Shown here in pieces: positions 1,651-24,274 of a stretch of DNA of 28,546 nucleotides (position 1 is its first letter; each line of letters begins with the position of its first letter). Below the pieces are notes generated by a model that was not told the DNA's origin, searched no databases, and saw only the letters and a list, made by a program, of their open reading frames with translations. The stretch is from a virus. The position numbers were made by a program, and so were the translations under genes. The DNA lies in the IMG/VR virus record IMGVR_UViG_3300046167_000292, positions 1 to 28,546 of that record, one strand, 5' to 3'.

Positions 1651-1670
1651 ATAAACGTTATAGTTATATG
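1651..1670 (+). promoter_or_regulatory. Candidate phage late promoter, copy 1
   Basis: The motif CGTTATAGTTATATG (1656..1670) is fused to the start codon of the protease gene. The same string with one variable base recurs before the genes at 6068 and 24272, and without the ATG before the terminase at 21717. An A-rich run precedes it. As a -10-like element it would give a nearly leaderless mRNA. The promoter role is inferred from recurrence and position. Confidence 0.55.
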
Positions 1671-2591
1671 AGGATAGTCGAACTTATTTTAGATGAAAAT
1701 AGTGTAGAGGGTATAGAGGCTATCTCTATTGTAGAAAACCCTGCCATTGAGGAGGACTTTGTTGCACTAAAAAATGAAGAAGTACAACTAGCAGAAGTTG
1801 ACAAACAACTATTAGTAGGTGCTTTGCTTATTCCTAATAAACCTATATACAGGCGTAAGGGAGAAGATGAGTATTATATTTACTTCTCTAAAGACACTAT
1901 CCGTAAGGCTGCTGAAATGTACCTTATGAAAGGCAATCAGAACAACAGCACACTAGAACACCAACACAGCCTAAATGGTTTAACGCTAGTAGAGAGTTGG
2001 TTAGTAGAAGATGAAACACACGATAAGTCTAGGAAGTATGGCTTAAACGTACCTGTGGGTACTTGGATGGGTGTAGTCAAAGTAAACAACGATGAGGTTT
2101 GGAATGACTATGTAAAAACAGGCAAAGTAAAAGGCTTCTCAATAGAGGGGTACTTCATTGACAAGATGGAAAGACCTAAAGAACCTATAAACGACTTTGA
2201 AGAAGAAGAAGCAGAGGAGATGCTATCTTATATACGTAGAATTGTAAGAGATGACAAACGTTATAAAGACGGTAAGAAAGAAGAACTAGAAAGCTATTCA
2301 GACTATCCTGATGCTGTAAAGAATAACGCACAAAGAGGCATAGACCTAAACAAAGAGGTAAACAACAAATGTGCAACTGATGTAGGTAAGATACGAGCGC
2401 AACAATTAGCACAAGGTAAACCTATTAGCGAAAACACTATTAAACGTATGTACTCTTATTTGTCAAGAGCAGAGGAGTATTACGATGAAGGAGATACTAA
2501 AGCTTGTGGTACTATATCCTACTTGTTGTGGGGTGGTAAAGCTGCAAAGAGATGGGCTGAAAGCAAACTAAAAGAATTAGACTTATTGTAA
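1668..2591 (+). CDS. Prohead protease, XkdF / peptidase S78_2-like, with extra C-terminal domain
   Basis: The N-terminal ~170 residues look like XkdF-type putative phage serine proteases, which mature the prohead. Conserved-looking points are an opening with SIVENPAI (residues 20-27), a His cluster LEHQHS (97-101) and KGFSIEG (155-161), whose Ser158 is the expected nucleophile. An acidic linker (~175-185) leads to a second domain (~205-305) with SDYPDAVKNNAQRG and a Cys/Trp-containing end (CGTISYLLWGG), seen in other phage structural proteins as far as I recall. It lies just upstream of scaffold and capsid, the normal order. Part of it (1945..2444) is duplicated at 3302..3801. ATG 1668 is fused to a candidate promoter. 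Confidence 0.75.
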   Translation: MRIVELILDENSVEGIEAISIVENPAIEEDFVALKNEEVQLAEVDKQLLVGALLIPNKPIYRRKGEDEYYIYFSKDTIRKAAEMYLMKGNQNNSTLEHQHSLNGLTLVESWLVEDETHDKSRKYGLNVPVGTWMGVVKVNNDEVWNDYVKTGKVKGFSIEGYFIDKMERPKEPINDFEEEEAEEMLSYIRRIVRDDKRYKDGKKEELESYSDYPDAVKNNAQRGIDLNKEVNNKCATDVGKIRAQQLAQGKPISENTIKRMYSYLSRAEEYYDEGDTKACGTISYLLWGGKAAKRWAESKLKELDLL

Positions 2592-2728
2592 TGCCTAGAA
2601 AATTAGACACAGCAAAGGTTATAAAACCTAAAGTAAGACGTAAGGGTGTACACGCTAAAACAAAAATGAGTAGCATAAAGGGCAGTAAGAACTATAAAAA
2701 AAAATATAAAGGACAAGGCAAATGTTAA
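2591..2728 (+). CDS. Small basic protein, 45 aa
   Basis: The ATG overlaps the last base of the protease stop codon. The 45-residue product is very basic (about 17 Lys/Arg) and ends in GQGKC. It could bind nucleic acid or be a small virion component; I do not recognise a family. Its stop overlaps the next small ORF, so the set looks translationally coupled. It would be missed by a 60-codon cut-off. Confidence 0.5.
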   Translation: MPRKLDTAKVIKPKVRRKGVHAKTKMSSIKGSKNYKKKYKGQGKC

Positions 2729-2859
2729 AGAGATTTTTGACACCATCACACACAAGCCCTAAAAGTAGTAAACGTGGATGTTTATGTGCTGACAAAGACA
2801 CTTACAGTACTAAATGCTGTAAAGGTAAATTAATCAATCAAGGAATAGGTAAAGTATAA
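2722..2859 (+). CDS. Small cysteine-motif protein, 45 aa
   Basis: The ORF overlaps the previous one by 7 bases. It carries four cysteines in a CxC-(x9)-CC pattern (C20, C22, C32, C33) with GCLCADKDTYSTKCCKG, then ends with a QGIGKV-like tail. The spacing could form a small zinc site or disulfides. I believe similar tiny proteins occur in head gene clusters of Bacteroidetes phages, but cannot verify it here. Position between protease and scaffold suggests a small head component. Confidence 0.5.
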   Translation: MLKRFLTPSHTSPKSSKRGCLCADKDTYSTKCCKGKLINQGIGKV

Positions 2860-2867
2860 TATATATT

Positions 2868-3281
2868 ATGAAAACAAATAAAAACACAATGAGCAAGATT
2901 GCTCAAATACATAAAGAAGAATTATCTGCTGAAAAGGTGGAGTTAAATATGCAGCAAGATATTGATAAGGTGTTGGATAGGTTAATATCTGAATTTCAAT
3001 CTTTACGAAGTATTGAGGGAGATATTGATGTGCAGTTTGAAAAAGTAAAAAGGGCAAAAGCAGATTTAGATGATTTTATCCGAGATGCTAAACAAGCACA
3101 AAAAGAAACTCAAAAAAGAGTACAAGAAGCAAATCAAGTTAAAGCTAAAGCAGAAAAAGCTGCAAAAGATTTAGGTGTAGATGCTAAAGCAATAAAAGGG
3201 TATAACGAAATAGATGACATTATATCCGAAGCTGAAGAAGAAATTAGGAATATAACTTCTTTTATTAAGCAGGTATCTTAA
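2868..3281 (+). CDS. Coiled-coil protein, possible head/assembly component
   Basis: 137 residues, almost entirely helical and charged (Lys/Glu/Ala/Gln heptad-like runs from about residue 15 to 105), with no signal peptide or membrane segment. It lies between the protease and a partial second copy of the protease. I do not recognise a family; a scaffold-like or other assembly role is possible from context only. Its base composition looks more A-rich than its neighbours. It sits inside the segment bounded by the two protease copies (2445..3301), so it may have arrived with the recombination that made the duplication. Confidence 0.55.
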   Translation: MKTNKNTMSKIAQIHKEELSAEKVELNMQQDIDKVLDRLISEFQSLRSIEGDIDVQFEKVKRAKADLDDFIRDAKQAQKETQKRVQEANQVKAKAEKAAKDLGVDAKAIKGYNEIDDIISEAEEEIRNITSFIKQVS

Positions 3282-3301
3282 AAATGTAAAATAAGTTAAA
3301 T

Positions 3302-3801
3302 ACAGCACACTAGAACACCAACACAGCCTAAATGGGCTTACGCTAGTAGAGAGTTGGCTAGTAGAAGATGAAACACACGATAAGTCTAGGAAGTATGGCT
3401 TAAACGTGCCTGTGGGTACTTGGATGGGTGTAGTCAAAGTAAACAATGACGAAGTTTGGAATGACTATGTAAAAACAGGTAAAGTAAAAGGTTTCTCAAT
3501 AGAGGGGTACTTCATAGACAAGATGGAAAGACCTAAAGAGCCTTTAAATGACTTTGAAGAAGAAGAAGCAGAGGAGATGCTATCTTATATACGTAGAATT
3601 GTAAGAGATGACAAACGCTATAAAGACGGCAAGAAAGAAGAATTGGAAAGCTACTCTGACTATCCTGATGCAGTAAAAAACAACGCACAAAGAGGCATAG
3701 ACCTAAACAAAGAAATAAACAACAAATGTGCAACTGATGTAGGTAAGATACGAGCGCAACAATTAGCACAAGGTAAACCTATTAGCGAAAACACTATTAA
3801 A
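3302..3801 (+). pseudogene. Partial second copy of the prohead protease gene
   Basis: These 500 bases align to 1945..2444 with no gaps (constant offset 1357). I count about 25 differences (~95% identity); about 23 are synonymous and the other two are I/L and V/I changes. The frame is intact but closed upstream by TAA at 3292..3294, with no ATG, so it lacks the N-terminal third and the C-terminal ~48 residues. It runs in frame into the scaffold gene, which makes an artificially long ORF (3406..4416). The pattern fits a recently captured allele of a sibling phage, or a strain chimera in the assembly, not a decaying duplicate. Confidence 0.85.
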
Positions 3802-3825
3802 AAAATAAATAGTTATAGTTATATG
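3801..3825 (+). promoter_or_regulatory. Degenerate late-promoter motif before the scaffold gene
   Basis: GTTATAGTTATATG (3812..3825) matches the CGTTATANTTATATG motif except for the leading C, and is fused to ATG 3823. The preceding A-rich run also resembles the stretch before 1656. This supports 3823 as the true scaffold start. Confidence 0.4.
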
Positions 3826-4416
3826 AAAGCAACCGAAATGTTAAATAAGATTAAAACCTATCTAGGCGAAGAAGCTACTGACATTGTGAATGATGTTGAG
3901 CAAAGCCAAGAAAAGGTTGAACTAGCAACTGCAAAGCTAGACAACGGTACTGTGTTAGAAGCAGAAGCGTTTGAAGCAGGAAAAGAAATATTTATAATTA
4001 CTGAAGATGACAAAGTAGCACTGCCTGTTGGCGATTATACTATGGAAGACGGTAAGATGCTAGTAGTAGCAGAAGAAGGCATTATTGCTGAAATCAAAGA
4101 CCTAGACGAACAAGCTGAAGTAGAGGCTGAAGAAGAAAAAGAAGAAATGGGTTATGTTACTAAAGAAGAACTAGCAGAAGCAGTATCTGAAATCAAAGCT
4201 ATGATTGAGGATATGAAGAAAGAAGAAATGAGCGAAGAAGCAGAAGTAGAATTATCAGAGGAATTACCGAAAGAAGTAAAAGAGGAATTGTCTGAACCTG
4301 CTGCCGAGCCTATTGCTCATAACCCTGAACAAAAAAATAACAATATTGGTGTAAAGTTTGCACAAAACAGAAAGCAAACAACACTCGATAAAGTAATGTC
4401 TAAAATTAACAATTAA
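3823..4416 (+). CDS. Capsid scaffold/assembly protein
   Basis: 197 residues from ATG 3823. The N-terminal part begins MKATEMLNKIKTYLGEE and holds a small beta-rich domain (about 35-95, with LDNGTVLEAEAFEAGKEIF). A strongly acidic, Glu-rich coiled coil (~95-160) follows, then a basic tail near the C terminus (QNRKQTTLDKVMSKINN). This acidic-helix/basic-tail layout directly before the major capsid gene is typical of scaffolding proteins, in which the basic tail contacts the capsid protein. A start at GTG 3406 is possible on paper but would fuse a protease fragment, so I reject it. Confidence 0.7.
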   Translation: MKATEMLNKIKTYLGEEATDIVNDVEQSQEKVELATAKLDNGTVLEAEAFEAGKEIFIITEDDKVALPVGDYTMEDGKMLVVAEEGIIAEIKDLDEQAEVEAEEEKEEMGYVTKEELAEAVSEIKAMIEDMKKEEMSEEAEVELSEELPKEVKEELSEPAAEPIAHNPEQKNNNIGVKFAQNRKQTTLDKVMSKINN

Positions 4417-4427
4417 AATTAAATAAA

Positions 4428-5348
4428 ATGCCAAACCCAACTATTACAAGTTCAAGTTACGCAGGAGAGTTTGCAGGAAAATATCTTGCTGCTGCACTTT
4501 TGTCTGCTGATACACTAGATAGCGGAACTGTTACTATTTTACCTAACGTAAAGTATAAAGCTGCTATGAAAGTAGGTTCTTTTGCAAATCTTGTCCGCTC
4601 TGCTGACTGTGATTTTGACGATAGCACCTCTACAATGACACTAACCGAGAAAGTACTTACTCCTGCTGAATTGCAAGTAAACTTACAAATCTGTAAGAAA
4701 GAATTACACGCAGATTGGGAAGCTGCTCAAATGGGCTTTAGTGCTTTTGATGAATTGCCACCTTTATTCTCTGACTTCGTTATCGCACAGGTAGCTGCTG
4801 AAGTTGCTAATGCAACTGAAACTTCTATTTGGTCAGGTAGCACAGGAGAAGGTTCTTTTGATGGTTTTGATACTCTATTAACTGCTGACGGTGGTGCTGA
4901 TGTAACTGCTGCTTCTGTTGATAGTACAAACGTAATTGCACAATTAGGTGCTATTGTAGATGCTATTCCTTCTACTGTTTACGGAAAAGAAGACCTAAAC
5001 CTTTATGTATCTTCAAACATTGCTAGAGCGTATGTACGTGCTTTAGGTGGATTTGTTGCTACTATTGGTGGTGCAGGTACAGATAACAAAGGTTCACAAT
5101 GGTACAACGGTGGTCAGCTTTCTTTTGAGGGTATCAACATTGTTGTAGCTAAAGGACTTGCTGATAACACAGCAATTGCAGCACAGAAATCTAACCTATT
5201 CTTTGGTACAGGTCTATTAGATGACCGTAACGAAGTTAAAGTTATTGATATGGCTGACCTAGATGGTTCACAAAACGTAAGAGTTGTGATGCGTTACACA
5301 GCAGGTGTACAATACGGAGTAAGAGGCGATATCGTTCTCTACTCATAA
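4428..5348 (+). CDS. Major capsid protein
   Basis: 306 residues, with low charge and many Ala/Gly/Thr/Ser residues, and no signal or membrane segment. It follows the scaffold and is followed by a strong terminator, as for a highly expressed gene. Two Cys residues are visible (in SADCDFDD and LQICKKEL). The middle contains LNLYVSSNIARAYVRALGG and the end GVQYGVRGDIVLYS, a finish resembling HK97-fold major capsid proteins of Bacteroidetes phages. The codon choice, with few rare-looking codons, agrees with high expression. Assignment rests on order, composition and remembered family resemblance. Confidence 0.8.
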   Translation: MPNPTITSSSYAGEFAGKYLAAALLSADTLDSGTVTILPNVKYKAAMKVGSFANLVRSADCDFDDSTSTMTLTEKVLTPAELQVNLQICKKELHADWEAAQMGFSAFDELPPLFSDFVIAQVAAEVANATETSIWSGSTGEGSFDGFDTLLTADGGADVTAASVDSTNVIAQLGAIVDAIPSTVYGKEDLNLYVSSNIARAYVRALGGFVATIGGAGTDNKGSQWYNGGQLSFEGINIVVAKGLADNTAIAAQKSNLFFGTGLLDDRNEVKVIDMADLDGSQNVRVVMRYTAGVQYGVRGDIVLYS

Positions 5349-5365
5349 TTTTAACTAACATAGAA

Positions 5366-5400
5366 AGGGTGGGTTAGGTATATCCTACCTGCCCTTTTTT
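5366..5400 (+). terminator. Rho-independent terminator after the capsid gene
   Basis: A long imperfect hairpin (AGGGTGGGTTAGG pairing with CCTACCTGCCCT around a TATAT loop, one bulge and two wobbles) is followed by six T. It lies 17 bases after the capsid stop and probably sets capsid mRNA level and stability. Confidence 0.8.
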
Positions 5401-5415
5401 AATAAATAAATAAAT

Positions 5416-5952
5416 ATGAGTTGTGCAATAACAAAAGGTAGAGGTATAGGCTGTAAGGCAGCTTATGCAGGTATCAAAAATGTATATATACTTGATTATA
5501 GCGCAGCGATTGCAGCGTTAAGCCCTTCATCAGGAACGGTAACATTACCATCAGATGGAAATACTGAATTTTTCAAGTTTGAAGTAAAAGGTGGTCAAAC
5601 ATCTTTAGAAACAAGCGTAACATCGAGCAGAGAAAATGGAACTACTTTTTATGAAAGTACTCTAAATATTACTTTTCAAAACCTAGATGTTGAAACACAA
5701 GAGGAGATAAAACTCTTAAACAGAGGTAGAGCGCACTATGTTGTTGAACTATATCCTGACGGTACAGGTACTACAAAGTACTTGCTAGTAGGAAAAGACA
5801 ACGGTGCAGAGGTTACAGGTGGTACTATTGTAACAGGAGCAGCAGCAGGGGATTTACAAGGGTTTACACTTACAGCGACAGCTAGTGAGGTTAATCCGCC
5901 ATTCTTCTCAACTGTGCCTGATGTAGATGCTACAACTATTACTCCTGCTTAA
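5416..5952 (+). CDS. Major tail tube-like protein
   Basis: 178 residues, beta-rich, opening MSCAITKGRGIGCKAAYAGI with a Cys pair, and containing SRENGTTFYESTLNITFQ and a region of hydrophobic/Thr alternation. The opening with a cysteine-containing start followed by a VYILDY-like strand resembles a virion protein family of Bacteroidetes phages generally taken as tail tube. It has its own unit: capsid terminator upstream, another terminator downstream. Alternative: a head decoration protein. No catalytic motif is visible. Confidence 0.55.
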   Translation: MSCAITKGRGIGCKAAYAGIKNVYILDYSAAIAALSPSSGTVTLPSDGNTEFFKFEVKGGQTSLETSVTSSRENGTTFYESTLNITFQNLDVETQEEIKLLNRGRAHYVVELYPDGTGTTKYLLVGKDNGAEVTGGTIVTGAAAGDLQGFTLTATASEVNPPFFSTVPDVDATTITPA

Positions 5953-5963
5953 TATATTTTTTA

Positions 5964-5971
5964 TATATTTG
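5964..5971 (+). promoter_or_regulatory. Host-type -7 box TATATTTG
   Basis: It fits the Bacteroidetes sigma-A -7 consensus TAnnTTTG, but no TTTG lies about 20 bases upstream. If active it would start RNA near 5975 and run into the terminator at 6002..6033, giving a transcript of roughly 60 bases. It could be chance in AT-rich DNA. Confidence 0.3.
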
Positions 5972-6001
5972 CGTAGAGTATAAGTTTTTTTTGATTATGA
6001 T

Positions 6002-6033
6002 AGAGGGGGGTGCATTAGCATCCCTCTTTTTTT
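6002..6033 (+). terminator. Rho-independent terminator after the tail tube gene
   Basis: GAGGG and CCCTC close a stem with TGC/GCA around ATTA, followed by a run of T. It insulates the tail tube unit from the portal operon, whose candidate late promoter starts 23 bases later. Confidence 0.75.
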
Positions 6034-6055
6034 ATTACAAATTCTCACTTTTTAT

Positions 6056-6070
6056 CGTTATACTTATATG
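6056..6070 (+). promoter_or_regulatory. Candidate phage late promoter, copy 2
   Basis: CGTTATACTTATATG is fused to the ATG at 6068. It differs from copy 1 only at the variable eighth base. It stands 23 bases after a terminator, the same arrangement as at 24260. Confidence 0.6.
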
Positions 6071-6433
6071 AAGATTGTATCAGTATCGCAAACACAAACA
6101 TTTAAGTATATACCAAGAGCAGAGTATGTTACTCAAACGCTTACATATACTGTTACTGATGAACAAACTAACAAGTCTGAAACAATTACAGCATCTACTA
6201 TTGTTGATAGCAATGAAAACTTTTTAACAGCTTCTATGACATTTGGCAGCAGCAACGCACCATTTAGAGAAGGACACTTTTACACACTAGAGGTTTTAAA
6301 TGGCAGCACATTAGTATATAGAGATAAATTGTTTTGTACAGCACAAGCACCTGTAACACAAAGCAGGTATAATGTAAATAAAGACGTTTACGATACAAAC
6401 GATACACACAATAACGATTATATAGTATTATGA
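6068..6433 (+). CDS. Small structural protein upstream of portal
   Basis: 121 residues, beta-rich, with no membrane segment. A central stretch NAPFREGHFYTLEV and a strand with YRDKLFCT look like a small immunoglobulin- or tail-type beta domain. It is the first gene of the portal operon, and its stop overlaps the portal ATG by 4 bases, so translation is probably coupled. I recognise it only as a conserved-looking virion gene of this phage type; exact role unknown. Confidence 0.6.
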   Translation: MKIVSVSQTQTFKYIPRAEYVTQTLTYTVTDEQTNKSETITASTIVDSNENFLTASMTFGSSNAPFREGHFYTLEVLNGSTLVYRDKLFCTAQAPVTQSRYNVNKDVYDTNDTHNNDYIVL

Positions 6434-7038
6434 TACACGCTTTAAGTTTATCGAATTATGTTAGCCCTACTATTGAAGAAAAAAAGGGTAAGGCATTTGT
6501 AACATACGGAGATAAAAACTCATACTTTCAGTACCTAATAGACCGTTACAATGGCAGCCCTACAAACAATGCTGTTATAAACGGTATTAGTGAAATGATA
6601 TACGGTAAAGGATTAGATGCTACTGACAGCAACAAAAAGCCTGATGCTTACGCACAAGCCATTACACTATTACATAAAGACTGTTTACGCAAACTATGTG
6701 CAGACCTTAAATTGTTTGGTCAATGTAGTATGCAGGTAATTTACAGTAAGGATAGAAAAAAGATAGCAAGGGTTGAGCATATACCTGTTGAACAACTAGC
6801 TGCTGAAAAGTGCAACGATAAAGGAGAAATAGAAGCATATTACTACTCTAATGATTGGGCTAAATACAACCGTATTAACCAAGTAAAGCGCATACCTGCT
6901 TTTGGTATGAGTAATGAAGCTATCGAAATTGTTTACGTTAAGCCTTACAGAGCAGGGTACAAGTACTATGCCACCCCTGACTATCAAGGTGGGTTGCAAT
7001 ATGCAGACCTTGAAGAAGAAATATCTAACTTCATATAA
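6430..7038 (+). CDS. Portal protein, N-terminal segment
   Basis: Residues 1-202 of a portal protein, the dodecameric ring through which DNA enters and leaves the head. Portal-like features: TYGDKNSYFQYLIDRY near the start, NAVINGISEMIYGKGL, and a Cys-containing helix before FGQCSMQVIY. Translation stops at TAA 7036, but the sequence resumes in another frame at CAT 7032 (one base appears to be missing in TTC at 7030..7032) and continues seamlessly into the next segment. The complete gene would be 6430..8221, about 596 residues, with three frame breaks. Confidence 0.8.
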   Translation: MIHALSLSNYVSPTIEEKKGKAFVTYGDKNSYFQYLIDRYNGSPTNNAVINGISEMIYGKGLDATDSNKKPDAYAQAITLLHKDCLRKLCADLKLFGQCSMQVIYSKDRKKIARVEHIPVEQLAAEKCNDKGEIEAYYYSNDWAKYNRINQVKRIPAFGMSNEAIEIVYVKPYRAGYKYYATPDYQGGLQYADLEEEISNFI

Positions 7039-7067
7039 ATAACATACAATCAGGATTAAGTCCTAGT

Positions 7068-7970
7068 ATGCTTATTAACTTTAATTCAGGTACTCCTAGT
7101 GCAGAAGAAAGAGAACAAATAGAAAGACGTATCTATGATAAGTTTTCAGGAAGTAGTAATGCAGGTAAGTTTATACTATCGTTTAACGACAGCCCTGAAA
7201 CAGCAGCTACAATAGACCCTGTACAATTAAGTGATGCACACAACCAATATCAGTTTTTAAGCGATGAGAGCAGCCGTAAGATACTTGTAGCGCACAGGGT
7301 AGTATCTCCTATGCTTTTGGGTATTAAAGACAATACAGGGCTTGGAAACAACGCAGAGGAGTTAGAAACAGCTACAAAGCTAATGATGAACTTGGTTATT
7401 AAACCTTTTCAGAACTTACTAATAGAAGCGTTTGATGAAATACTAGCTTATAATAATATATCTCTTAACCTATACTTCAAGACACTACAACCTTTAGAGT
7501 TTATAGAAATTGACAAAGAAATTGTTGATGATGAAACACAAGAAGAAGAAACAGGTGTAAAGTTAGCAAGTGATTTAGATAAATTTGTAGACACAGATAT
7601 TGCTGATGCTCTTATAGATTTAGGACAAGATGAAGAAGAACTACTAAAGGACTTTGAAGTTATAGACGAGCAAGAGGTAGACTACGACAATGACGATGAC
7701 CTAAACCAAAAGATTAAGGAGTTAAACGAGCAAACTAATCTAGCTAGTACAGGTAGTGCCAAGCCATATAGTGAAAGCAAACAAGATGGTAAGTCTAAAC
7801 AAAAAGGTCAAGAGGACAAAACATATTTAGTTAGATATATGTACAATCCTGCAAAGACTAAAGGCACATCTAGAGAGTTTTGCAAAAAAATGGTAAGTGC
7901 TAAAAAGGTATATCGTAAAGAAGATATAAACGCTATGACAAGTAAAGGTTGTAAATGCAGGTTTTGGTAA
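7068..7970 (+). CDS. Portal protein, central segment
   Basis: Continues the portal after the break near 7031; ATG 7068 is probably an internal Met, since coding sense extends back to 7032 (HINNIQSGLSPS). Portal-type features: NFNSGTPSAEEREQIE, then FDDSP-like FILSFNDSPETAATI, then AHRVVSPMLLGIKDNTGLGN, the usual wing/stem region where the polypeptide selects valid partner subunits. An acidic stretch follows. The frame breaks again at 7953..7955, where an extra A turns the expected AAT GCA into AAA TGC and leads to a premature TAA. Confidence 0.8.
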   Translation: MLINFNSGTPSAEEREQIERRIYDKFSGSSNAGKFILSFNDSPETAATIDPVQLSDAHNQYQFLSDESSRKILVAHRVVSPMLLGIKDNTGLGNNAEELETATKLMMNLVIKPFQNLLIEAFDEILAYNNISLNLYFKTLQPLEFIEIDKEIVDDETQEEETGVKLASDLDKFVDTDIADALIDLGQDEEELLKDFEVIDEQEVDYDNDDDLNQKIKELNEQTNLASTGSAKPYSESKQDGKSKQKGQEDKTYLVRYMYNPAKTKGTSREFCKKMVSAKKVYRKEDINAMTSKGCKCRFW

Positions 7971-8221: not shown

Positions 8222-8223
8222 AT

Positions 8224-10656: not shown

Positions 10657-10658
10657 TT

Positions 10659-13584: not shown

Positions 13585-13780
13585 TATATAGTTATATATA
13601 TATATATATAGTTATATATAATATTGATATATAGTATAACAAGTATATAACATATAACTACTATATAACACCTACTATATATAGCATATAACTATAAATA
13701 AAAACTACTATATAGCAGTTAGTATATATGTGTTCAAAACTATATTTTTAGATGTTTAGAAGTAGGCTTATCTTTGGCAT
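13585..13780 (+). other. AT-rich iterated region, candidate replication origin
   Basis: No gene. Extremely AT-rich. TATATAGTTATATATA occurs at 13585..13600 and 13605..13620; CTACTATATA at 13658..13667, 13672..13681 and 13705..13714; CATATAACTA at 13651..13660 and 13685..13694. It separates the late lysis genes from the first early gene. Clustered short repeats plus easily melted DNA fit an origin or a protein-binding regulatory region. No clear DnaA box seen. Confidence 0.45.
13769..13780 (+). promoter_or_regulatory. Early promoter, TATCTTTG box 4 bases before ATG
   Basis: TATCTTTG (13769..13776) matches the Bacteroidetes -7 consensus TAnnTTTG, and ATG 13781 follows after GCAT. The same layout occurs at 14469 and 14609. 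Expected transcription start is at or next to the ATG, so a leaderless mRNA is likely. The -33 position is only T-rich. Confidence 0.6.
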
Positions 13781-14540: not shown

Positions 14541-14561
14541 TTCTCTATATGTTTGTTCGAA

Positions 14562-14592: not shown

Positions 14593-14608
14593 ATTAAAAT
14601 ATTTTTTG

Positions 14609-15124: not shown

Positions 15125-15135
15125 AAATAAATATT

Positions 15136-15402
15136 ATGACTAAAACTTGGGTAGACGGATTGAGAATATTCGACAACAAACAGGAATGGATAGTTTGCGA
15201 CATTAAAATAAATGCAGACGAGATGATAAATTGGATTAACCAAAATAGAGCAAACGTAAATGAGCGTGGTTCTATTCCAATTACGATAGCTAAAAGTGAG
15301 AAAGGATTGTACTCAATGCTTAACACTTATGAAGTACAGAAGTCAAAGGAAGTAACAACAGCACAACATTCTCCTGACCGAGAAGCAGACTTGCCTTTCT
15401 AA
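15136..15402 (+). CDS. Putative single-stranded DNA-binding protein
   Basis: 88 residues. Beta-patterned core (WIVCDIKINADEMINWINQN, then GSIPITIAKSEKGLYSMLN) with aromatic residues suitable for DNA stacking, and a flexible tail ending in DREADLPF. An acidic tail ending in PF is the partner-binding tip of bacterial SSB proteins. It stops one base into the start of the replicative ATPase, fitting a replication role. No OB-fold signature can be confirmed by eye, so the assignment is inference from tail and context. Confidence 0.5.
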   Translation: MTKTWVDGLRIFDNKQEWIVCDIKINADEMINWINQNRANVNERGSIPITIAKSEKGLYSMLNTYEVQKSKEVTTAQHSPDREADLPF

Positions 15403-15614
15403 TGCTTATACAGCTAGACAATCACATAAAGAAGTTAGACGAATACCGAGCAGGGACTTTGAAAACAGGTCTCCGCTTGGGTATTCCTAGACTTGATGAA
15501 CACTTTAGGTTTAAGTATGGAGATTTTAATATCATACTAGGACACGCAAACGTAGGAAAAACATCTCTAGTCCTTATACCTAATGACACTATACGCTATG
15601 AAGCACGGCATTAA
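15402..15614 (+). CDS. RecA/DnaB-like replicative ATPase, N-terminal segment (frame-broken)
   Basis: Start of a RecA-fold ATPase of the phage helicase type: TLKTGLRLGIPRLDEHFRFK, then Walker A GHANVGKT (residues 47-54). After CTT 15573..15575 the coding sense moves +1 (skipping A15576), giving VLYLMTLYAMKHGIKWLVF. In the zero frame it ends after 12 further, non-conserved codons at TAA 15612. The full gene would run to 16140 and probably unwound DNA or loaded the host helicase. Confidence 0.7.
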   Translation: MLIQLDNHIKKLDEYRAGTLKTGLRLGIPRLDEHFRFKYGDFNIILGHANVGKTSLVLIPNDTIRYEARH

Positions 15615-15945
15615 ATGGCTTGTGTTTAGTAGTGAGAATGAGCCTTATTCTATTATAAGAAAAATAGTAGAATTTAGAGAGGGCAAACCAATAAACAAAA
15701 TAGAGGAAACACACTACAAGGAGCAAGTAAAGTGGATTAACGAACACTTTAAATTTATTGATGGTTCAAAGCTATACACTTACAAATCATTACTTGATTT
15801 AGCACAGCACGTAAAAAAGGCTTGGGATTATCAGGGTTTTTTATTAGACCCTTACAACTCACTAAACAAAGACAAAGATGTACTAAAAGGTATATCAGGA
15901 CACGAGTACGATTATCAAGCAACAAGCGAGATTAGAATATTCTGA
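15583..15945 (+). CDS. RecA/DnaB-like ATPase, central segment
   Basis: Continues the ATPase: KWLVFSSENEPYSIIRKIVE (the Walker-A-following strand with SSEN), then a helical region and a Walker B-like GFLLDPYNSL, as in phage DnaB-like proteins with DPYN. It stops at TGA 15943 directly after ATSEIRIF. The same frame continues behind the stop with the known C-terminal part. The catalytic middle expected after EIRIF (sensor strand with Asn-His and the ssDNA loop) is missing: an in-frame deletion whose junction codon became the stop. Confidence 0.7.
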   Translation: MTLYAMKHGIKWLVFSSENEPYSIIRKIVEFREGKPINKIEETHYKEQVKWINEHFKFIDGSKLYTYKSLLDLAQHVKKAWDYQGFLLDPYNSLNKDKDVLKGISGHEYDYQATSEIRIF

Positions 15946-16140
15946 TACATATACCATCCTGCTGATTGGATGTATTCACACTTGCATATTAAGAAGATTA
16001 AAGATGTAGACACAGGTGGCAGACCTACACCAATGGAAGACCCTATTAGACTAGAAAGCGTATTAAATAACGTAGGCTTTAACATAGAGGGTAAGAACCC
16101 TATACAATATCCTAAACGTGAGCAAACAGAACTGTTATGA
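15946..16140 (+). pseudogene. RecA/DnaB-like ATPase, C-terminal remnant
   Basis: Same frame as the previous segment, 64 codons then TGA: YHPADWMYSHLHIKKIKDVD, TGGRPTPMEDP and NVGFNIEGKNPIQYP. The HPxDWM...H(I/V)xKIKxxxTGG run is the usual end of this ATPase family, as I recall. No start codon of its own. Its stop overlaps the methyltransferase ATG by 4 bases, so it was once translated to the end. Confidence 0.6.
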
Positions 16141-16751
16141 TTACTTGTGAGGATAATATGGAACTAATGGCAAGGTATGAAGATAATTACTTTGACCTTG
16201 CTATTGTAGACCCACCTTATGGTATTGATAAATTACTATATAGGAGTAGTTATGGTGGTTGTGTTGGAGGATTGACTAAATACTCTAAAAATAGGTGGGA
16301 TAAAGAAACACCAACTGATAAATATTTTATAGAGTTGATTAGAGTTTCAAAAGAACAGATTGTTTGGGGTGGTAATTACTTTCCTATACTTTGGGAAAAA
16401 AGTTGCAGAGGTTTAATAACGTGGGATAAAATGGTTTATCTTCCTACAATGAGCCAAGTAGAATACGCTTGGTATTCAAAAGATAAATTACCACAACTTG
16501 TAAAAATAAATAACAATGATAGCAATAGGTTGCACCCAACGCAAAAACCGATAGCTTTATACGAATGGTTACTTACGAACTATGCAAAAGAGGGCGATAA
16601 GATTTTAGATACTCATTTAGGAAGTGGTTCAATAGCTATTGCCTGTCATAATTTAGGCTTTGACCTTACGGCTTGTGAACTTGATAAAGAGTATTACGAT
16701 GCAGCAATAAAACGAATAGACAACCACAAAAACCAACAAAGACTATTTTGA
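16137..16751 (+). CDS. DNA methyltransferase (N6-adenine or N4-cytosine, beta-type order)
   Basis: 204 residues. Catalytic motif IV DPPYG (25-29) comes first and the SAM-binding motif I DTHLGSGS (158-165) last, with HPTQKP (133-138) just before it: the beta-class order. DPPY favours N6-adenine methylation. The small target-recognition region (about 40-130) is short. It modifies phage DNA, probably to escape host restriction, or acts in regulation. No matching restriction endonuclease neighbour is obvious, although PD-(D/E)XK proteins lie at 17817 and 18544. Start overlaps the ATPase stop (ATGA). Confidence 0.85.
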   Translation: MITCEDNMELMARYEDNYFDLAIVDPPYGIDKLLYRSSYGGCVGGLTKYSKNRWDKETPTDKYFIELIRVSKEQIVWGGNYFPILWEKSCRGLITWDKMVYLPTMSQVEYAWYSKDKLPQLVKINNNDSNRLHPTQKPIALYEWLLTNYAKEGDKILDTHLGSGSIAIACHNLGFDLTACELDKEYYDAAIKRIDNHKNQQRLF

Positions 16752-17245
16752 TAACCGACATACTAACAAGCAAACATAATAAATGGATAAGTTATTGCCG
16801 TAGTTGGGGGTGTAATCCTGACACATCAGAGGACTTGGTACAAGAGATGTATCTTAAACTCCTAGTGCTTATACAGAACGGAATAGATATCTCGTATAAA
16901 GACGATATAAACGACTTTTATATTTATAAGGTGCTTCGTAGTATGTTTTTAGATTTATGTCGTAAGGAGCAACGTACACAAGTTGTAGACCTAACAGACG
17001 ATTACATAAAACACCTAATAGAAGAAAAGACAAAGGTAGAACTTGAAGATGAAAAGATATTTGAAGAAGCCTTTGACAAAGTAAACCAAGCATTAAATGA
17101 GATGCATTGGTACGACAAAAAGGTATTTGAACTTGTACAGGACACTAACAATATATCAGCACTATCTAGGGAAACTAACATAGAGTATAGAAGCCTTTAC
17201 AATACCTATCAGAAAGTTAAACGCAAAATAAAAGAGAAATTATGA
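16748..17245 (+). CDS. Sigma-70-like factor A
   Basis: 165 residues. Residues ~10-76 look like sigma region 2: NKWISYCRSWGCNPDTSEDL, then VQEMYLKLL, then YIYKVLRSMFLDLCRKEQR. Residues ~115-162 look like region 4: LNEMHWYDKKVFEL, then a helix-turn-helix ISALSRETNIEYRSLYNTYQ with basic KVKRKIKEKL. The size and two-domain layout are those of ECF-type sigma factors. It would redirect host RNA polymerase, plausibly to the CGTTATANTTATA late promoters. Overlaps its neighbours by 4 bases on both sides. Confidence 0.7.
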   Translation: MITDILTSKHNKWISYCRSWGCNPDTSEDLVQEMYLKLLVLIQNGIDISYKDDINDFYIYKVLRSMFLDLCRKEQRTQVVDLTDDYIKHLIEEKTKVELEDEKIFEEAFDKVNQALNEMHWYDKKVFELVQDTNNISALSRETNIEYRSLYNTYQKVKRKIKEKL

Positions 17246-17820
17246 TTGAACAAATATATAGAGATAGAAAAAAATGGTTAAGAATTGCAATGAGTTTTGG
17301 ATTAAACAAACAAGACGCTGAAGATGTATTAAGCCATATGTATTTAAAAATTTATCAAAAATTAAAAAAAGGTTATGATATATCTTACGAAGATGGTTAT
17401 AATCATATGTATGTATATAAAGTTATTAAGTCAAAGTATATAGATTTATATAGAAAAAAACGAAGAATAAAAACTATGCTTTCTATGCGATTTGACAATG
17501 ATGGGGATGTAGTTTTTTTACATAGTGATGGTCAAAGGCATATGAAAACAAAGCCTAAAAAAATTAGAGCAGAAAAAAATTTAGATTATGATTTATTTAG
17601 CAATGAATACAAAAAAATACTTAATAAATTAAAAAACAACAAAAACAGTAGTTTATACAAATTACAGCAACACGTACACTATTTTGAAGAAATAAACAAT
17701 ATGGAAAAACCAAGCTTTACAAATTATTGTAAATTAAATAATGTAAAATACAGGGAGGTATATAACGGTTACCATATAGTTAAAGATATTTTAAAAAATG
17801 AAATGTTAGAATTAATATGA
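17242..17820 (+). CDS. Sigma-70-like factor B, paralogue of A
   Basis: 192 residues, homologous to the previous gene. Region 2: KKWLRIAMSFGLNKQDAEDV, then HMYLKIYQKLKKGYDISYED and YVYKVIKSKYIDLYRKKRR. The shared pattern is ED...MYLK...G.DISY.D...YVYKV...DL.RK.R. A ~70-residue insertion with basic and His residues follows, then a region-4-like helix-turn-helix (SFTNYCKLNNVKYREVYNGY). It looks more AT-rich than factor A, so the pair may be an old duplication or a separate acquisition. It may recognise a different promoter class or antagonise A. Confidence 0.6.
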   Translation: MIEQIYRDRKKWLRIAMSFGLNKQDAEDVLSHMYLKIYQKLKKGYDISYEDGYNHMYVYKVIKSKYIDLYRKKRRIKTMLSMRFDNDGDVVFLHSDGQRHMKTKPKKIRAEKNLDYDLFSNEYKKILNKLKNNKNSSLYKLQQHVHYFEEINNMEKPSFTNYCKLNNVKYREVYNGYHIVKDILKNEMLELI

Positions 17821-18343: not shown

Positions 18344-18344
18344 T

Positions 18345-19479: not shown

Positions 19480-19493
19480 CAAACATATAGATT

Positions 19494-20267: not shown

Positions 20268-20395
20268 AACGATTTATAAGCGATATGGAAACCATACAAC
20301 TAGCCATCAAGCTAGGAGATTATGAAGATGCTTTAGAAATGCTACAAGAGGTTAAAGAAGAAATGATTATATTAGATGCTTTAAATTATGAATAA
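20264..20395 (+). CDS. Small helical protein, 43 aa
   Basis: 43 residues, helical, with LAIKLGDYEDALEMLQEVKE, a tetratricopeptide-like helix pair in appearance. Overlaps the exonuclease and HNH genes by 4 and 8 bases. Function unknown. Confidence 0.45.
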   Translation: MKRFISDMETIQLAIKLGDYEDALEMLQEVKEEMIILDALNYE

Positions 20396-20882
20396 AGAAC
20401 AACTAGCATACGAGAAAGGTTACAGGGTTACAAAAGACGGATGTTTAATTGGTTTAAGACGCAGAAGGATTGGTTCGATAAATAATGAAGGGTATGAAAG
20501 AACAACAATTTTAAATAATAATAATAAAAAACTTTATATTCAAACGCATAGATTACAAGCATATCAAAAATATGGAGATAAATTATTTCAAGATGGTATT
20601 GTAGTCAGACACTTAAACGGAAACGCTTTAGACAATTCTTGGAATAACATAGCCATAGGCACACAGAGAGATAATATAATGGACATACCTAAAGAAAAAC
20701 GTAAAAGAGATACATCAAAAGGTAATAAAGCATCTATAAAATATCCGAAAGAGTTTGTGTTAAAATTAAGAGAAGAATACAAAGTAATAAAAAATTATAA
20801 TGAATTAGGTAGAAAATATCATATGTATCCAACAGTGATATGGCAATTAATAAACAAACGCAAAGTATTTAAAGATGCGTAA
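20388..20882 (+). CDS. HNH endonuclease, free-standing homing type
   Basis: 164 residues. N-terminal NUMOD-like strand region (VTKDGCLIGLRRRRIGSINN), then HRLQAYQKYG and the HNH core VVRHLNGNALDNSWNNIAIG (H, then N with the typical LDN...NI), then a C-terminal helix-turn-helix (NYNELGRKYHMYPTVIWQLI) for DNA binding. Such enzymes move themselves between phages by cutting an unoccupied site. The gene appears more AT-rich than neighbours, which fits acquisition. It overlaps both adjacent ORFs by 8 bases, so insertion did not break them. Confidence 0.85.
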   Translation: MNKEQLAYEKGYRVTKDGCLIGLRRRRIGSINNEGYERTTILNNNNKKLYIQTHRLQAYQKYGDKLFQDGIVVRHLNGNALDNSWNNIAIGTQRDNIMDIPKEKRKRDTSKGNKASIKYPKEFVLKLREEYKVIKNYNELGRKYHMYPTVIWQLINKRKVFKDA

Positions 20883-21051
20883 GACTACACTAATAAAAAG
20901 TTATGCCTACTTTAAAGGCGAACTACAAAGAGCATACGAAAACACAAACGAGAAACTAATAAACTATTATACAGATGAAATACAAAAACTTCTTACTAAA
21001 TACTACACAAAGAAACAGGGAGAACATACAACACCTAAAAACTTTGATTGA
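20875..21051 (+). CDS. Small ORF, 58 aa, possibly the true N-terminus of the DnaA-C gene
   Basis: MRKTTLIKSYAYFKGELQRA and a helix to DEIQKLL. At CTT CTT (20989..20994) a +1 shift skipping A20995 would continue into LNTTQRNREN, the frame of the DnaA domain IV protein, giving one ~199-residue protein. The remaining zero-frame tail (TKYYTKKQGEHTTPKNFD) looks non-conserved. Either a separate overlapping gene or the first part of the next one. Confidence 0.45.
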   Translation: MRKTTLIKSYAYFKGELQRAYENTNEKLINYYTDEIQKLLTKYYTKKQGEHTTPKNFD

Positions 21052-21475
21052 GAAGCAAACAGGGAAAGACATAACAATAAACACTAGACACAGAGAAATA
21101 GTATTTGCAAGAAAGATATACTACAAGATACTTACCCTAACTACCAAGATGAGTTACAAGTCTATTGGGGATACACTAGGGCAGACACACGCAACTGTAA
21201 TACACGCACTAAACAACTTTGATTGGGATTACGACCATAACCCTGCATTTAAAGAGGCATACGATAGAGTATACAACTTGTACACTAAAAAGGGTACTGT
21301 CGCTACTGTTGAGACAATGGTGTACGAAAACAGGGTACTAGAAGAAAAGATAGTTGAACTAAAAGGTCAGATAGACGAATTGAGAAACGAGTTAAAAGAA
21401 ACACGTAGAAACAATATAAGACCTAGAAACCAACAAGCAACTATATACAATGCTTCTGAAACAGTAATACTGTGA
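20975..21475 (+). CDS. DnaA domain IV-like DNA-binding protein
   Basis: 166 residues. RHREIVFARKIYYKILTLTT, then MSYKSIGDTLGQTHATVIHA with LNNF, matches the C-terminal DNA-binding domain of DnaA (basic R...IVxARxI helix, the (S)xxxIGxxxGxxHxTVxHA signature). No AAA+ ATPase domain. A C-terminal coiled coil (VLEEKIVELKGQIDELRNEL) suggests oligomerisation. It may bind the phage origin (see 13585..13780) or host DnaA boxes. The ATG 20975 start is uncertain because of the possible +1 link to the upstream ORF. Confidence 0.75.
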   Translation: MKYKNFLLNTTQRNRENIQHLKTLIEKQTGKDITINTRHREIVFARKIYYKILTLTTKMSYKSIGDTLGQTHATVIHALNNFDWDYDHNPAFKEAYDRVYNLYTKKGTVATVETMVYENRVLEEKIVELKGQIDELRNELKETRRNNIRPRNQQATIYNASETVIL

Positions 21476-21567
21476 AAAAAGCTATATACATAATAGTAAT
21501 TATATGGGCTGCCTTTCTAACAATAGGAGCAATAGGTGGAGCGATTGAAATAATAATAAACTTATGA
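21472..21567 (+). CDS. Small membrane protein, 31 aa
   Basis: GTG start inside the previous stop (GTGA). Basic MKK, then one hydrophobic helix (AIYIIVIIWAAFLTIGAIGG). Overlaps the next ORF by 4 bases. Function unknown; possibly membrane modulation of the host. Confidence 0.45.
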   Translation: MKKAIYIIVIIWAAFLTIGAIGGAIEIIINL

Positions 21568-21656
21568 AAATAAACCACACAAAAATATTAGCTTGGATAG
21601 TAATAGGAATTATGACAATAGCTATTTGGAATAGCATATATAATTTAGTGTTTTAA
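21564..21656 (+). CDS. Small membrane protein, 30 aa
   Basis: MKINHTK followed by one hydrophobic helix (ILAWIVIGIMTIAIW). Start overlaps the preceding stop (ATGA). Together with the previous ORF it forms a two-gene membrane peptide cassette at the end of the early operon. Confidence 0.45.
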   Translation: MKINHTKILAWIVIGIMTIAIWNSIYNLVF

Positions 21657-21672
21657 AAAAGTAAACTAATTA

Positions 21673-21685
21673 CGTTATACTTATA
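21673..21685 (+). promoter_or_regulatory. Candidate phage late promoter, copy 3 (terminase)
   Basis: CGTTATACTTATA matches the first 13 bases of the motif at 6056, but here the ATG lies 32 bases downstream (21717). It shows that conservation of the motif is independent of start codon overlap. Confidence 0.55.
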
Positions 21686-21716
21686 AGCGGTTTACAATAA
21701 CTTAATACGCTTAACT

Positions 21717-22079
21717 ATGTACGACACTAAAGAACTAGAAAGAAAATCACTAGAAGCCATTAAAGAGCATAAGCTGATGTTTATAGAACACGTAGTTGCT
21801 TATTTACCCTGTTCAAAGCCTACTTTTTATGAGCATAAACTTAACGAACTTAACAGCATAAAAAAGGCAATAGAAGAAAATAGAACTGTTAAGAAAGTAG
21901 CGTTACTTAATAATTGGATTACAACTGAAGCTGCACCTGTATTGCAAATAGCAGCTATGAAGATGATTAGTAGTGATGAAGAAGCGCACAGGCTAAATGG
22001 TACAAAGCGTGAGATAAAGCACGACACAAAACAAAAGAGTTTTAAGGTAGAAGTGATTGACCACAATACAAGTAAATAA
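21717..22079 (+). CDS. Terminase small subunit
   Basis: 120 residues. Helix-turn-helix-like start: LEAIKEHKLMFIEHVVAYLP followed by CSKPTFYEHKLNELNSIKKA, a central helix and a Lys-rich end. The Bacteroidetes-phage type of small terminase, which recognises phage DNA for packaging. It immediately precedes and overlaps (23 bases) the large subunit. It has the candidate late promoter 32 bases upstream. Confidence 0.7.
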   Translation: MYDTKELERKSLEAIKEHKLMFIEHVVAYLPCSKPTFYEHKLNELNSIKKAIEENRTVKKVALLNNWITTEAAPVLQIAAMKMISSDEEAHRLNGTKREIKHDTKQKSFKVEVIDHNTSK

Positions 22080-23208
22080 AGTATACAACCATCTAACCAA
22101 CTCTAATAAGAAGATAACATTAGAAGTAGGTGGAACTAGGAGCGGTAAGACATACAATGTTCTACTGTGGATTATTCTACACTATTGCCAACACAACGAA
22201 AACAAAACGATTACTATATGCCGTAAGACATTCCCTGCTGTACGTGCTACTGTAATGCGAGACTTCCTAGAGATACTCAAACGTATGGACTTATACGATG
22301 AACAGCACCACAATAAGAGCAACCACGAGTATAAGCTAGACAGTAACCTCATAGAGTTTATATCATTAGACCAACCACAAAAGGTAAGAGGACGTAAAAG
22401 AGATTTACTTTTCGCCAATGAGATGAATGAACTGACATTTGAAGATTGGCAGCAGTTGGTATTTAGAACAACAGACAAGATAGTAGGAGACCTTAACCCT
22501 TCTGATGAGTACCATTGGATATGGGAGAAGCTAGAGCAAAGGGAAGATGTAGAAATATACAACACTACCTACCTAGACAATCCATTCCTAGACGATAGCA
22601 TAAGAAGCGAGATAGAACTACTAAAAGACACAGATGAGAACTATTGGAGAATATATGGACTTGGACAAAGAGCAATATCTAAAGCAACTATATTCAAATA
22701 CACGGAGATTGATAGCATACCTGACGATGCACAGCTTGTGGCTTATGGGATGGACTTTGGATTTAACGACCCTACTACACTTGTTGCAACATACAAGAAA
22801 GACCACAACCTATACTTTAAAGAAATGCTATACAGGTCAAAGATGACAACAGAGGACATACACCAATATCTAAAAGGAGTAGAGGTATTAGGTATGACTT
22901 ATGCAGATAGCGCAAGACCTGAAATAATAGAACAGTTGCGTAGATACGGACACAAAGTAATGAAGTCTTATAAAGGTGCTAATTCTGTACTAGCAGGGAT
23001 AGACCTACTTAAAAGGTATAAACTCCACGTAACAAAGGATAGCGAGAATATGATAAAAGAATTCAGAAGCTATAAGTGGAAAGAAGATAGAGCAGGTAGA
23101 ATAACTAACGTACCTGAAGATTTACACAACCACACACTTGATGCAGCTAGGTACTCCTGCTACTCTATATTAAGTAAACCTAACTTTGGTAAGTATTACA
23201 TACATTAG
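22057..23208 (+). CDS. Terminase large subunit
   Basis: 383 residues. Walker A GGTRSGKT (25-32), Walker B LLFANE (117-122), then the RNase H-like nuclease with MDFGFNDP (232-239), ADSARPE (D284) and HTLDAARY (D362). ATPase and nuclease domains of the packaging motor are both complete. TTG 22057 is the only suitable start ahead of Walker A (the previous frame codon is a stop). Somewhat short compared with lambda-type terminases but normal for this group. Ends at a possible promoter region (23210..23251). Confidence 0.9.
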   Translation: MTTIQVNKVYNHLTNSNKKITLEVGGTRSGKTYNVLLWIILHYCQHNENKTITICRKTFPAVRATVMRDFLEILKRMDLYDEQHHNKSNHEYKLDSNLIEFISLDQPQKVRGRKRDLLFANEMNELTFEDWQQLVFRTTDKIVGDLNPSDEYHWIWEKLEQREDVEIYNTTYLDNPFLDDSIRSEIELLKDTDENYWRIYGLGQRAISKATIFKYTEIDSIPDDAQLVAYGMDFGFNDPTTLVATYKKDHNLYFKEMLYRSKMTTEDIHQYLKGVEVLGMTYADSARPEIIEQLRRYGHKVMKSYKGANSVLAGIDLLKRYKLHVTKDSENMIKEFRSYKWKEDRAGRITNVPEDLHNHTLDAARYSCYSILSKPNFGKYYIH

Positions 23209-23219
23209 TTTTATAAACA

Positions 23220-23251
23220 TTTGGTTAATTAAAATATAGTTTATATATTAG
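23220..23251 (+). promoter_or_regulatory. Host-type promoter, TTTG-N20-TATATTAG
   Basis: TTTG (23220..23223), 20 bases, then TATATTAG (one mismatch from TAnnTTTG). The enclosing 20-mer 23210..23229 is the exact reverse complement of 14416..14435. It precedes the small membrane gene cassette by 19 bases. Confidence 0.5.
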
Positions 23252-23253
23252 CA

Positions 23254-23453
23254 CTTTAAAACAAACATTATGAAACGTAAGATAGAAAACTTTATATTTG
23301 ACACAATTATATACGTAGCTGCTTTTGGACTAGTATGCACGTTTTGCCAACTATGCGCACACGCTGATAAATGGATGGGGTTATGAAAGATTTAAAACTT
23401 TTTATAGTGGTTATTCTGACACTAACATTTTTAGTTTGGTCTAAACATTACTT
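23254..23453 (+). repeat. 200-bp direct repeat, copy 1
   Basis: Identical to 23622..23821 apart from three substitutions (ATT/ATA, CTA/TTA, GCA/GCT), all synonymous in the small membrane gene. Spans the leader, the complete 38-aa gene and the first 23 codons of the next gene. Confidence 0.9.
23270..23386 (+). CDS. Small membrane protein, copy 1, 38 aa
   Basis: MKRKIENFIFDTIIYVAAFG followed by LVCTFCQLCAHADKWMGL: basic N-terminus, one hydrophobic helix, three Cys near its end. An almost identical copy lies at 23638..23754 (all three differences silent or outside codon meaning). Stop overlaps the next start (ATGA). Unknown function. Confidence 0.55.
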   Translation: MKRKIENFIFDTIIYVAAFGLVCTFCQLCAHADKWMGL

Positions 23454-23559
23454 TGAAAGCTTACAAGGCAAAGGATTAACAGGAAGACAAATACTTGATG
23501 AAACTGCATTGTTTAGAGAAAGATGGGAAGAAACCAATTACCTAAGGAATAAAAAATAA
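23383..23559 (+). CDS. Small membrane-anchored protein, 58 aa
   Basis: ATG 23383 overlaps the previous stop, a better start than the in-frame ATG at 23371. Residues 4-20 form a hydrophobic helix (LKLFIVVILTLTFLVW), followed by a charged soluble tail with GLTGRQILDETALFRERWEE. Type II anchor topology likely. Its first 23 codons are repeated at 23751. Function unknown. Confidence 0.55.
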   Translation: MKDLKLFIVVILTLTFLVWSKHYFESLQGKGLTGRQILDETALFRERWEETNYLRNKK

Positions 23560-23607
23560 CCACTAACACTTATGGTTTACCTGAAATAAAAACTACATAA
23601 AAAAACA

Positions 23608-23621
23608 GGGGAGCAATCCCC
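23608..23621 (+). terminator. Hairpin before the second repeat copy
   Basis: GGGGA pairs with TCCCC around a GCAA tetraloop (GNRA type). Only three T follow, so it is a weak terminator or an mRNA-stabilising hairpin. It ends the first copy of the cassette. Confidence 0.45.
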
Positions 23622-23821
23622 CTTTAAAACAAACATTATGAAACGTAAGATAGAAAACTTTATATTTGACACAATAATATACGTAGCTGCTTTTGGATTA
23701 GTATGCACGTTTTGCCAACTATGCGCTCACGCTGATAAATGGATGGGGTTATGAAAGATTTAAAACTTTTTATAGTGGTTATTCTGACACTAACATTTTT
23801 AGTTTGGTCTAAACATTACTT
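23622..23821 (+). repeat. 200-bp direct repeat, copy 2
   Basis: Offset 368 from copy 1. Breaks off inside the second gene, where unrelated sequence begins after TTACTT. Confidence 0.9.
23638..23754 (+). CDS. Small membrane protein, copy 2, 38 aa
   Basis: Same protein as at 23270 (differences are synonymous). The retained coding sense suggests either recent duplication or selection on both copies. Stop overlaps the next start as in copy 1. Confidence 0.55.
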   Translation: MKRKIENFIFDTIIYVAAFGLVCTFCQLCAHADKWMGL

Positions 23822-23831
23822 GGGGATATGA
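23751..23831 (+). pseudogene. Truncated copy of the 23383 membrane gene, 26 aa
   Basis: Shares the first 23 codons (through KHY) with 23383, then ends LGI and TGA after the repeat boundary. It keeps the membrane helix but loses the soluble tail. Overlaps the next ORF by 4 bases. Confidence 0.6.
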
Positions 23832-23950
23832 TAGTAGAAATAGGAAACAAACACTTTAGAGATACAGGGGAAACTATGCAAGAGGTATATTGGAATGAAA
23901 CCTTTGAGGAGTGGACACCTGTACTATGGGAGCAAAAGATGGAGATATGA
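23828..23950 (+). CDS. Small acidic protein, 40 aa
   Basis: 40 residues, rich in Glu/Trp (YWNETFEEWTPVLWEQKMEI), soluble. ATG overlaps the previous stop (ATGA) and its stop overlaps the next ATG. Function unknown. Confidence 0.45.
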   Translation: MIVEIGNKHFRDTGETMQEVYWNETFEEWTPVLWEQKMEI

Positions 23951-24075
23951 AAAAGACCAAGAAACAAATAGACGAGAATGTTAGGTTTATACCTTTAGCT
24001 GAATGGCAAGAAACGTATCAATACCACAGAACAAACAAGCGCAGCAGACAGGTAGATGAAAACGGTAAGAGATGA
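23947..24075 (+). CDS. Small basic protein, 42 aa
   Basis: 42 residues, Lys/Arg-rich at both ends with VRFIPLAEWQETYQYH between. May bind nucleic acid (inference). Coupled to neighbours through 4-base overlaps. Confidence 0.45.
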   Translation: MKKTKKQIDENVRFIPLAEWQETYQYHRTNKRSRQVDENGKR

Positions 24076-24224
24076 AACTACATAAACTACACACAGGGGT
24101 TATAATAACCCACATACACACAGACATAGGGATAAGCGTAAAGGCTAGACATCCTAAAGACAAGGACTATATAGTGTGGGAATTACTACACAAAACACAA
24201 CAATTTTATAGAGGGCTTTTATAG
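24072..24224 (+). CDS. Small His-rich protein, 50 aa
   Basis: 50 residues: MKLHKLHTGVIITHIHTDIG then beta-type strands and EYIVWELL-like end (KDYIVWELLHKTQQF). Several His at the N-terminus. Its stop lies inside the terminator hairpin. Last gene of the small-ORF cassette; no family recognised. Confidence 0.45.
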   Translation: MKLHKLHTGVIITHIHTDIGISVKARHPKDKDYIVWELLHKTQQFYRGLL

Positions 24225-24236
24225 CCCTTTTTTTTA
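24212..24236 (+). terminator. Rho-independent terminator before the tail operon
   Basis: AGGGCT pairs with AGCCCT around TTTAT, followed by a run of eight or more T. Ends the small-ORF cassette, 24 bases before the candidate late promoter at 24260. Confidence 0.85.
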
Positions 24237-24259
24237 TTCCTAAAAACCTGCTTTATATA

Positions 24260-24274
24260 CGTTATATTTATATG
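24260..24274 (+). promoter_or_regulatory. Candidate phage late promoter, copy 4 (tail operon)
   Basis: CGTTATATTTATATG is fused to ATG 24272. The gap from the upstream terminator nearly equals that at 6033..6056, suggesting a standard terminator/late-promoter joint. Confidence 0.6.

Follow-up and report, generated by a model that had tools for sequence, protein, structure and literature searches.

In T4 (gp55) and SPO1 (gp28), both of which are large myophages, a phage sigma factor replaces the host one and thereby activates late or middle genes. The late system of T4 needs a clamp co-activator and uses a -10 element only. The locus described here is likened to these switches by description. 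Comparable too are phiEco32 gp36 and 7-11 gp47, where, according to the accessible parts of the published account, a phage sigma factor brings the host polymerase to a few late promoters, transcription begins several bases past the -10 element and the consensus varies with the sigma factor: the eight late promoters of gp47 are bipartite with the consensus GTAAtg-16-aCTA, and gp36 recognizes tAATGTAtA with no -35 element (PMC8948821). This likeness is again one of descriptions. Both phages differ from ours in having enterobacterial hosts, and those parts of the account describe no fusion of promoter and start codon (PMC8948821). On the host side, the available part of a study of Flavobacterium psychrophilum attributes a CGT -10 box to ECF sigma factors and reports that 5.5% of the mRNAs are leaderless; the ECF-type promoters of its strain SM6 belong to host genes, and no AAA-14-CGTTATA-ATG layout is described there (PMC9723704). 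In Flavobacterium johnsoniae, the host -7 box is placed 4-5 nt before the transcription start in the section available to us (PMC6847099).

The sequence studied here, referred to as the window, is the whole 28,546-base virus record IMGVR_UViG_3300046167_000292. It contains four exact copies of the 13-mer CGTTATANTTATA (1656-1668, 6056-6068, 21673-21685 and 24260-24272) and a fifth copy with one mismatch (3811-3823), all on the plus strand. They are all in the coding orientation, and each stands at the head of one unit: protease, scaffold, portal, terminase or tail (Table 1). The original prediction of a recurring promoter-like motif was thereby confirmed, with the sites essentially where it had placed them. 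At up to one mismatch, neither the minus strand nor a reversed control pattern of the 13-mer gave a single occurrence. The four exact copies are far above chance, as first-order Markov shuffles contained 0.015 copies on average (maximum 1 in 1000). With two mismatches allowed the excess was modest (18 observed vs. 8.9 expected), so that the weight is carried by the exact copies and their positions. A held-out matrix, trained solely on sites of relatives less than 75% identical to those of the window, put the four exact sites on top with 21.2-28.3 bits, followed by the next match with 13.7 bits; the best score in 30 shuffles was 17.3 bits. The motif had been described as fused to the start codon at three sites. 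The fusion itself stood and the count did not: it is found at four of the five sites, including the scaffold site (ATG 3823), and the terS site (21673) is unfused, with AAG in place of the ATG and the gene start another 32 nt downstream. The terminators predicted to precede two of the sites were found upstream of the portal and tail promoters, at 6002-6029 and 24210-24230, each with a T tail; both are strong and are the first two listed by the terminator scan.

Table 1 Features of the proposed late-promoter system in the window.
Feature	Position	Strand	Elements	Evidence or remark
Candidate protease-unit late promoter	1639..1670	+	AAA 1639-1641, CGTTATA 1656-1662, ATG 1668-1670	Held-out score 21.2; same site in relatives
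Candidate scaffold promoter, -10 half	3811..3825	+	AGTTATAGTTAT fused to ATG 3823	Intact, uninterrupted promoter in 23 relatives' sequences
Candidate scaffold promoter, upstream half, displaced	3284..3302	+	ATGTAAAATAAGTTAAATA	Separated from the -10 half by an insertion
Insertion in candidate scaffold promoter	3303..3800 (right end approximate)	+		Diverged partial copy of the protease gene
Candidate portal-operon late promoter	6038..6070	+	CAAA 6038-6041, CGTTATA 6056-6062, ATG 6068	Held-out score 21.8; relatives
Candidate terminase-unit late promoter	21656..21685	+	AAA about 21656-21658, CGTTATA 21673-21679; decoupled from terS ATG 21717	Held-out score 28.3, highest in the window
Candidate tail-operon late promoter	24243..24274	+	AAA 24243-24245, CGTTATA 24260-24266, ATG 24272	Held-out score 25.6; relatives
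Intrinsic terminator upstream of portal promoter	6002..6033	+		Terminator scan
Intrinsic terminator upstream of tail promoter	24210..24237	+		Terminator scan
sig1, ECF-type sigma-70 factor, 165 aa, proposed late-promoter reader	16748..17245	+		TIGR02937, PDB profile, fold match
sig2, diverged sig1-like paralogue, 192 aa, accessory	17242..17820	+		29% identity to sig1

The conserved unit is bipartite and has a fixed geometry, with (c)AAA at -30 to -27 and ACGTTATA at -13 to -6 relative to the ATG and a T at -1. CGTTATA itself occupies -12 to -6, and the upstream AAA box at -29 to -27, a short element in an AT-rich genome, lies 14-15 nt before it. The element of the window thus shows the CGT at -10 and the paired -35/-10 arrangement of ECF-type promoters; the CGT is missing from two promoter classes of the relatives (B and C, see below). 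Relatives were collected via the major capsid protein and the sigma-like protein, and orthologous gene starts were compared. GTTATA at -11 was present at 52 of 88 non-redundant late-unit heads vs. none of the 95 other gene starts compared, most of which are operon-internal. Complete relatives typically have four or five coding-strand sites by the held-out matrix, and the sites of the relatives are mostly those at the protease, scaffold, portal operon, terS and tail. The predicted position at the heads of structural and packaging units, as expected of a phage late promoter, is therefore shared across the relatives. Genomes of other motif classes gave none or one weak match with this matrix, and a few genomes had extra matches inside genes. 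An unrestricted motif scan returned many chance matches; of those that had an AAA box and were followed by an ORF of 90 or more codons, all (42 of 42) were in contigs of this phage family and 0 elsewhere. In several genomes, the window among them, the terS element keeps its sequence and stands 10-32 nt ahead of the ATG; in other terS alleles of the relatives it is fused to the ATG. In one genome it is decoupled from the ATG at the tail gene as well.

In the window contig, an insertion of ~500 bp cuts off the upstream box of the scaffold promoter. It is absent from all 23 relatives' sequences compared and may be either a recent rearrangement that damaged the promoter or, due to several apparently broken genes in the contig, an assembly fault. 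An ATPase-like gene (15402-16140) and the portal gene (6430-7970) are seemingly split by frameshifts or stops, which suggests sequence errors or decay. The window is apparently a near-complete phage, because its two ends join in frame inside the tape-measure gene; direct terminal repeats of 82-127 bp were found in three relatives of 29.7-32.3 kb. Small genes at 23270-23386 and 23638-23754 are repeated and encode the same 38-aa protein. A host-type TATATTTG box stands ~30-40 bp upstream of a strong terminator (5964-6033), an arrangement also present in a relative (G003, position 4117), and the two together possibly specify a small RNA. Rfam and tRNA scans of the window gave no matches.

The original prediction had connected the motif with a sigma-like gene pair. 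One member, sig1, proved to be conserved and is encoded in 27 of the 28 promoter-bearing genomes, the sole exception being an incomplete contig of 23.6 kb. The other, sig2, is accessory, with a second sigma copy found in the window and one close relative only. sig1 matches TIGR02937 (sigma70-ECF) over residues 13-165 with 43.1 bits against a cut-off of 42.9, and all 24 members of its alignment match the same model at E up to 0.01. For Pfam Sigma70_r2 it reaches 22.5 bits, where the curated cut-off is 24, and E values of up to 0.01 were obtained for 14 of 16 relatives. The PDB profile matches of sig1 at E < 0.2 are all sigma factors and nearly all named ECF. Its AlphaFold model has a mean pLDDT of 83.6 and a pTM of 0.45, and the domain placement is therefore unsure. 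Like ECF factors, the model consists of regions 2 and 4 only in an ECF fold; region 4 aligns to region 4 of sigmaE with -35 DNA at 1.6 Å and region 2 at 2.7 Å, and the best full-length fold match is a chain named ECF SigE (E 7.9e-4). Across 84,980 bacterial and archaeal genomes, a scan that reaches only relatives with shared sig1 peptide patterns found one, in a MAG contig.

Among the relatives, the promoter sites co-occur with the conserved sig1 gene; the refuting pattern named with the original prediction, in which phages lacking the sigma factor would carry the motif and those having it would not, was sought and did not turn up. The same pairing extends to isolated phages. Nonlabens phages P12024L and P12024S have a capsid protein 30% identical to that of the window, encode a Sigma-70 region 2 protein and carry six ATG-fused sites, in which CAAA lies at about -30 and CGTTAA at about -12. 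They thus resemble the window in their capsid and sigma homologues and in promoter layout and spacing, and differ in the -10 element, which is CGTTAAT rather than CGTTATA, and in the larger number of sites. Three Bacteroidota phages without a sig1-family gene had 0 such sites on the coding strand.

The promoters of the relatives were sorted into classes A (CGTTATA), B (TTTATATATTA), C (AGTTATATATAT), D (CGTTAAT) and E ((C/T)GATATA) with hand-written patterns, which left some sites unclassified. Classifiable protease, scaffold and portal sites of one contig always share their class, with 0 mixed cases among the 56 contigs that have at least two classifiable sites. On the sigma tree, in which the class A branch has low SH-aLRT support, classes A-D need three changes, the minimum. 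On the capsid tree, classes A, B, C and E need six, and B, C and E are scattered. As judged from these trees, promoter class follows the sigma factor and not the capsid gene. Class C is instructive here: contigs with a class C sigma carry class C promoters, and the capsid genes of class C phages belong to both the A lineage (L135, 89% identical to that of the window) and the B lineage (L161 and L162), so that class C promoters occur with either; L162 shares 97% identity over 2.8 kb with a contig coding for the class C sigma. The co-variation could partly reflect shared descent of whole genomes, against which the capsid tree argues. Of 41 conserved sigma columns, just 7 differ between classes A and B, and four of these are in region 2.4, at residues 67-72 (hypergeometric P 0.0016, in a small test on a single A/B split with six B sequences). 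The region-4 helix columns 139-154 remain unchanged, and so does the AAA box. This pattern would be expected if region 2.4 reads the -10 element and region 4 the constant AAA box.

These results also bear on the question of whether the host could read the sites itself, through its primary or an ECF sigma factor. A CGT -10 box is indeed reported for a host ECF-type class in the available part of the F. psychrophilum study (PMC9723704). Nevertheless, we regard a host sigma factor as improbable, because the motif differs from the TAnnTTTG box of the host primary sigma factor, as had been noted originally, follows the phage sigma clade instead of the capsid gene and is absent from the three Bacteroidota phages that lack the sigma factor, and because the bacterial relatives of sig1 within reach of the peptide-pattern scan come down to the one MAG contig. 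The TAnnTTTG box was rejected as a promoter marker by itself, being equally common on both strands of the window (27 and 26), and a generic sigma-70 promoter scan of the window gave matches no more numerous than in shuffles. In the early region, TAnnTTTG boxes at 13769, 14469 and 14609 end 4 nt before an ATG; with the spacing known from F. johnsoniae, early mRNAs from these boxes would be leaderless too.

A different phage regulator that binds the site and activates the host polymerase, e.g. the DnaA-type HTH protein (20975-21475), is just as poor a prospect. This family has matches in 27 of the 28 genomes, so that sig1 is not the sole conserved candidate regulator, and TTATA is repeated within the motif. 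However, the spacing and content of the element suit a -35/-10 pair, an ECF sigma factor is present and the class-specific sigma changes fall in region 2.4. Still harder to sustain is the reading of the motif as a translation-initiation signal of late genes, which would account for the fusion to ATG at four of the five sites and at most sites of the relatives. This reading was rejected, since in several genomes the full-strength motif precedes the terS ATG by 10-32 nt, with a like separation from the start codon at one tail gene, and since it occurs at none of the 95 starts of other genes; in addition, a second box lies 14 nt upstream, and the window has T at -3, where A favours initiation in F. 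johnsoniae according to the available part of that work (PMC6847099). That sig2, or sig1 and sig2 jointly, acts as the late factor hardly deserves credence although both are sigma-like and adjacent, and the two-sigma model was rejected because the second copy is not conserved, occurring in two of the 28 promoter-bearing genomes.

The motif is therefore very probably, on sequence grounds, the -10 half of a bipartite late promoter that is read by the phage-encoded sig1 and mostly gives leaderless starts. The bipartite architecture, the shared late units, the co-occurrence with sig1, the tracking of the sigma clade and the absence from the sigma-less phages support the late promoter for a phage sigma factor that was originally proposed. 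It looks like the late-gene on-switch of a marine phage family infecting Bacteroidota-type bacteria, and its reader is probably the small phage-encoded sigma factor, whose binding we infer. We propose that sig1 would be made from the early operon and ride the host RNA polymerase to a late promoter of the form (c)AAA - 14 nt - aCGTTATA - about 5 nt - start, used ~5 times per genome, with sigma region 4 reading the AAA box and region 2 reading CGTTATA. Transcription would start on the A of the ATG or no more than about 2 nt away from it, presumably late in infection. As a consequence, the protease, scaffold, portal and tail mRNAs would be leaderless or nearly so, and the terS mRNA would have a leader of about 32 nt; from the spacing, a leaderless start is thus predicted for four of the five units and not for terS.

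No account of these late promoters, including those of P12024L and P12024S, was found in the openly available literature at the level of titles and abstracts. The proposal offers a testable late-transcription mechanism for a widespread ocean phage group for whose control logic we found no description. A phage sigma factor is thereby connected with its own promoters in five natural sequence classes, and the residues that determine promoter specificity are therefore directly testable. On balance, we favour the view that in this large family of marine Bacteroidota phages the entire structural programme depends on some five promoters that are specific to the phage, mostly leaderless and recognized by an ECF sigma factor confined to phages, that the promoters of acquired capsid modules were all converted to the class of the new sigma factor and that specificity resides largely in region 2.4. 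If the proposed mechanism is true, these phages would systematically produce late mRNAs without leaders in hosts that are reported to have few of them.
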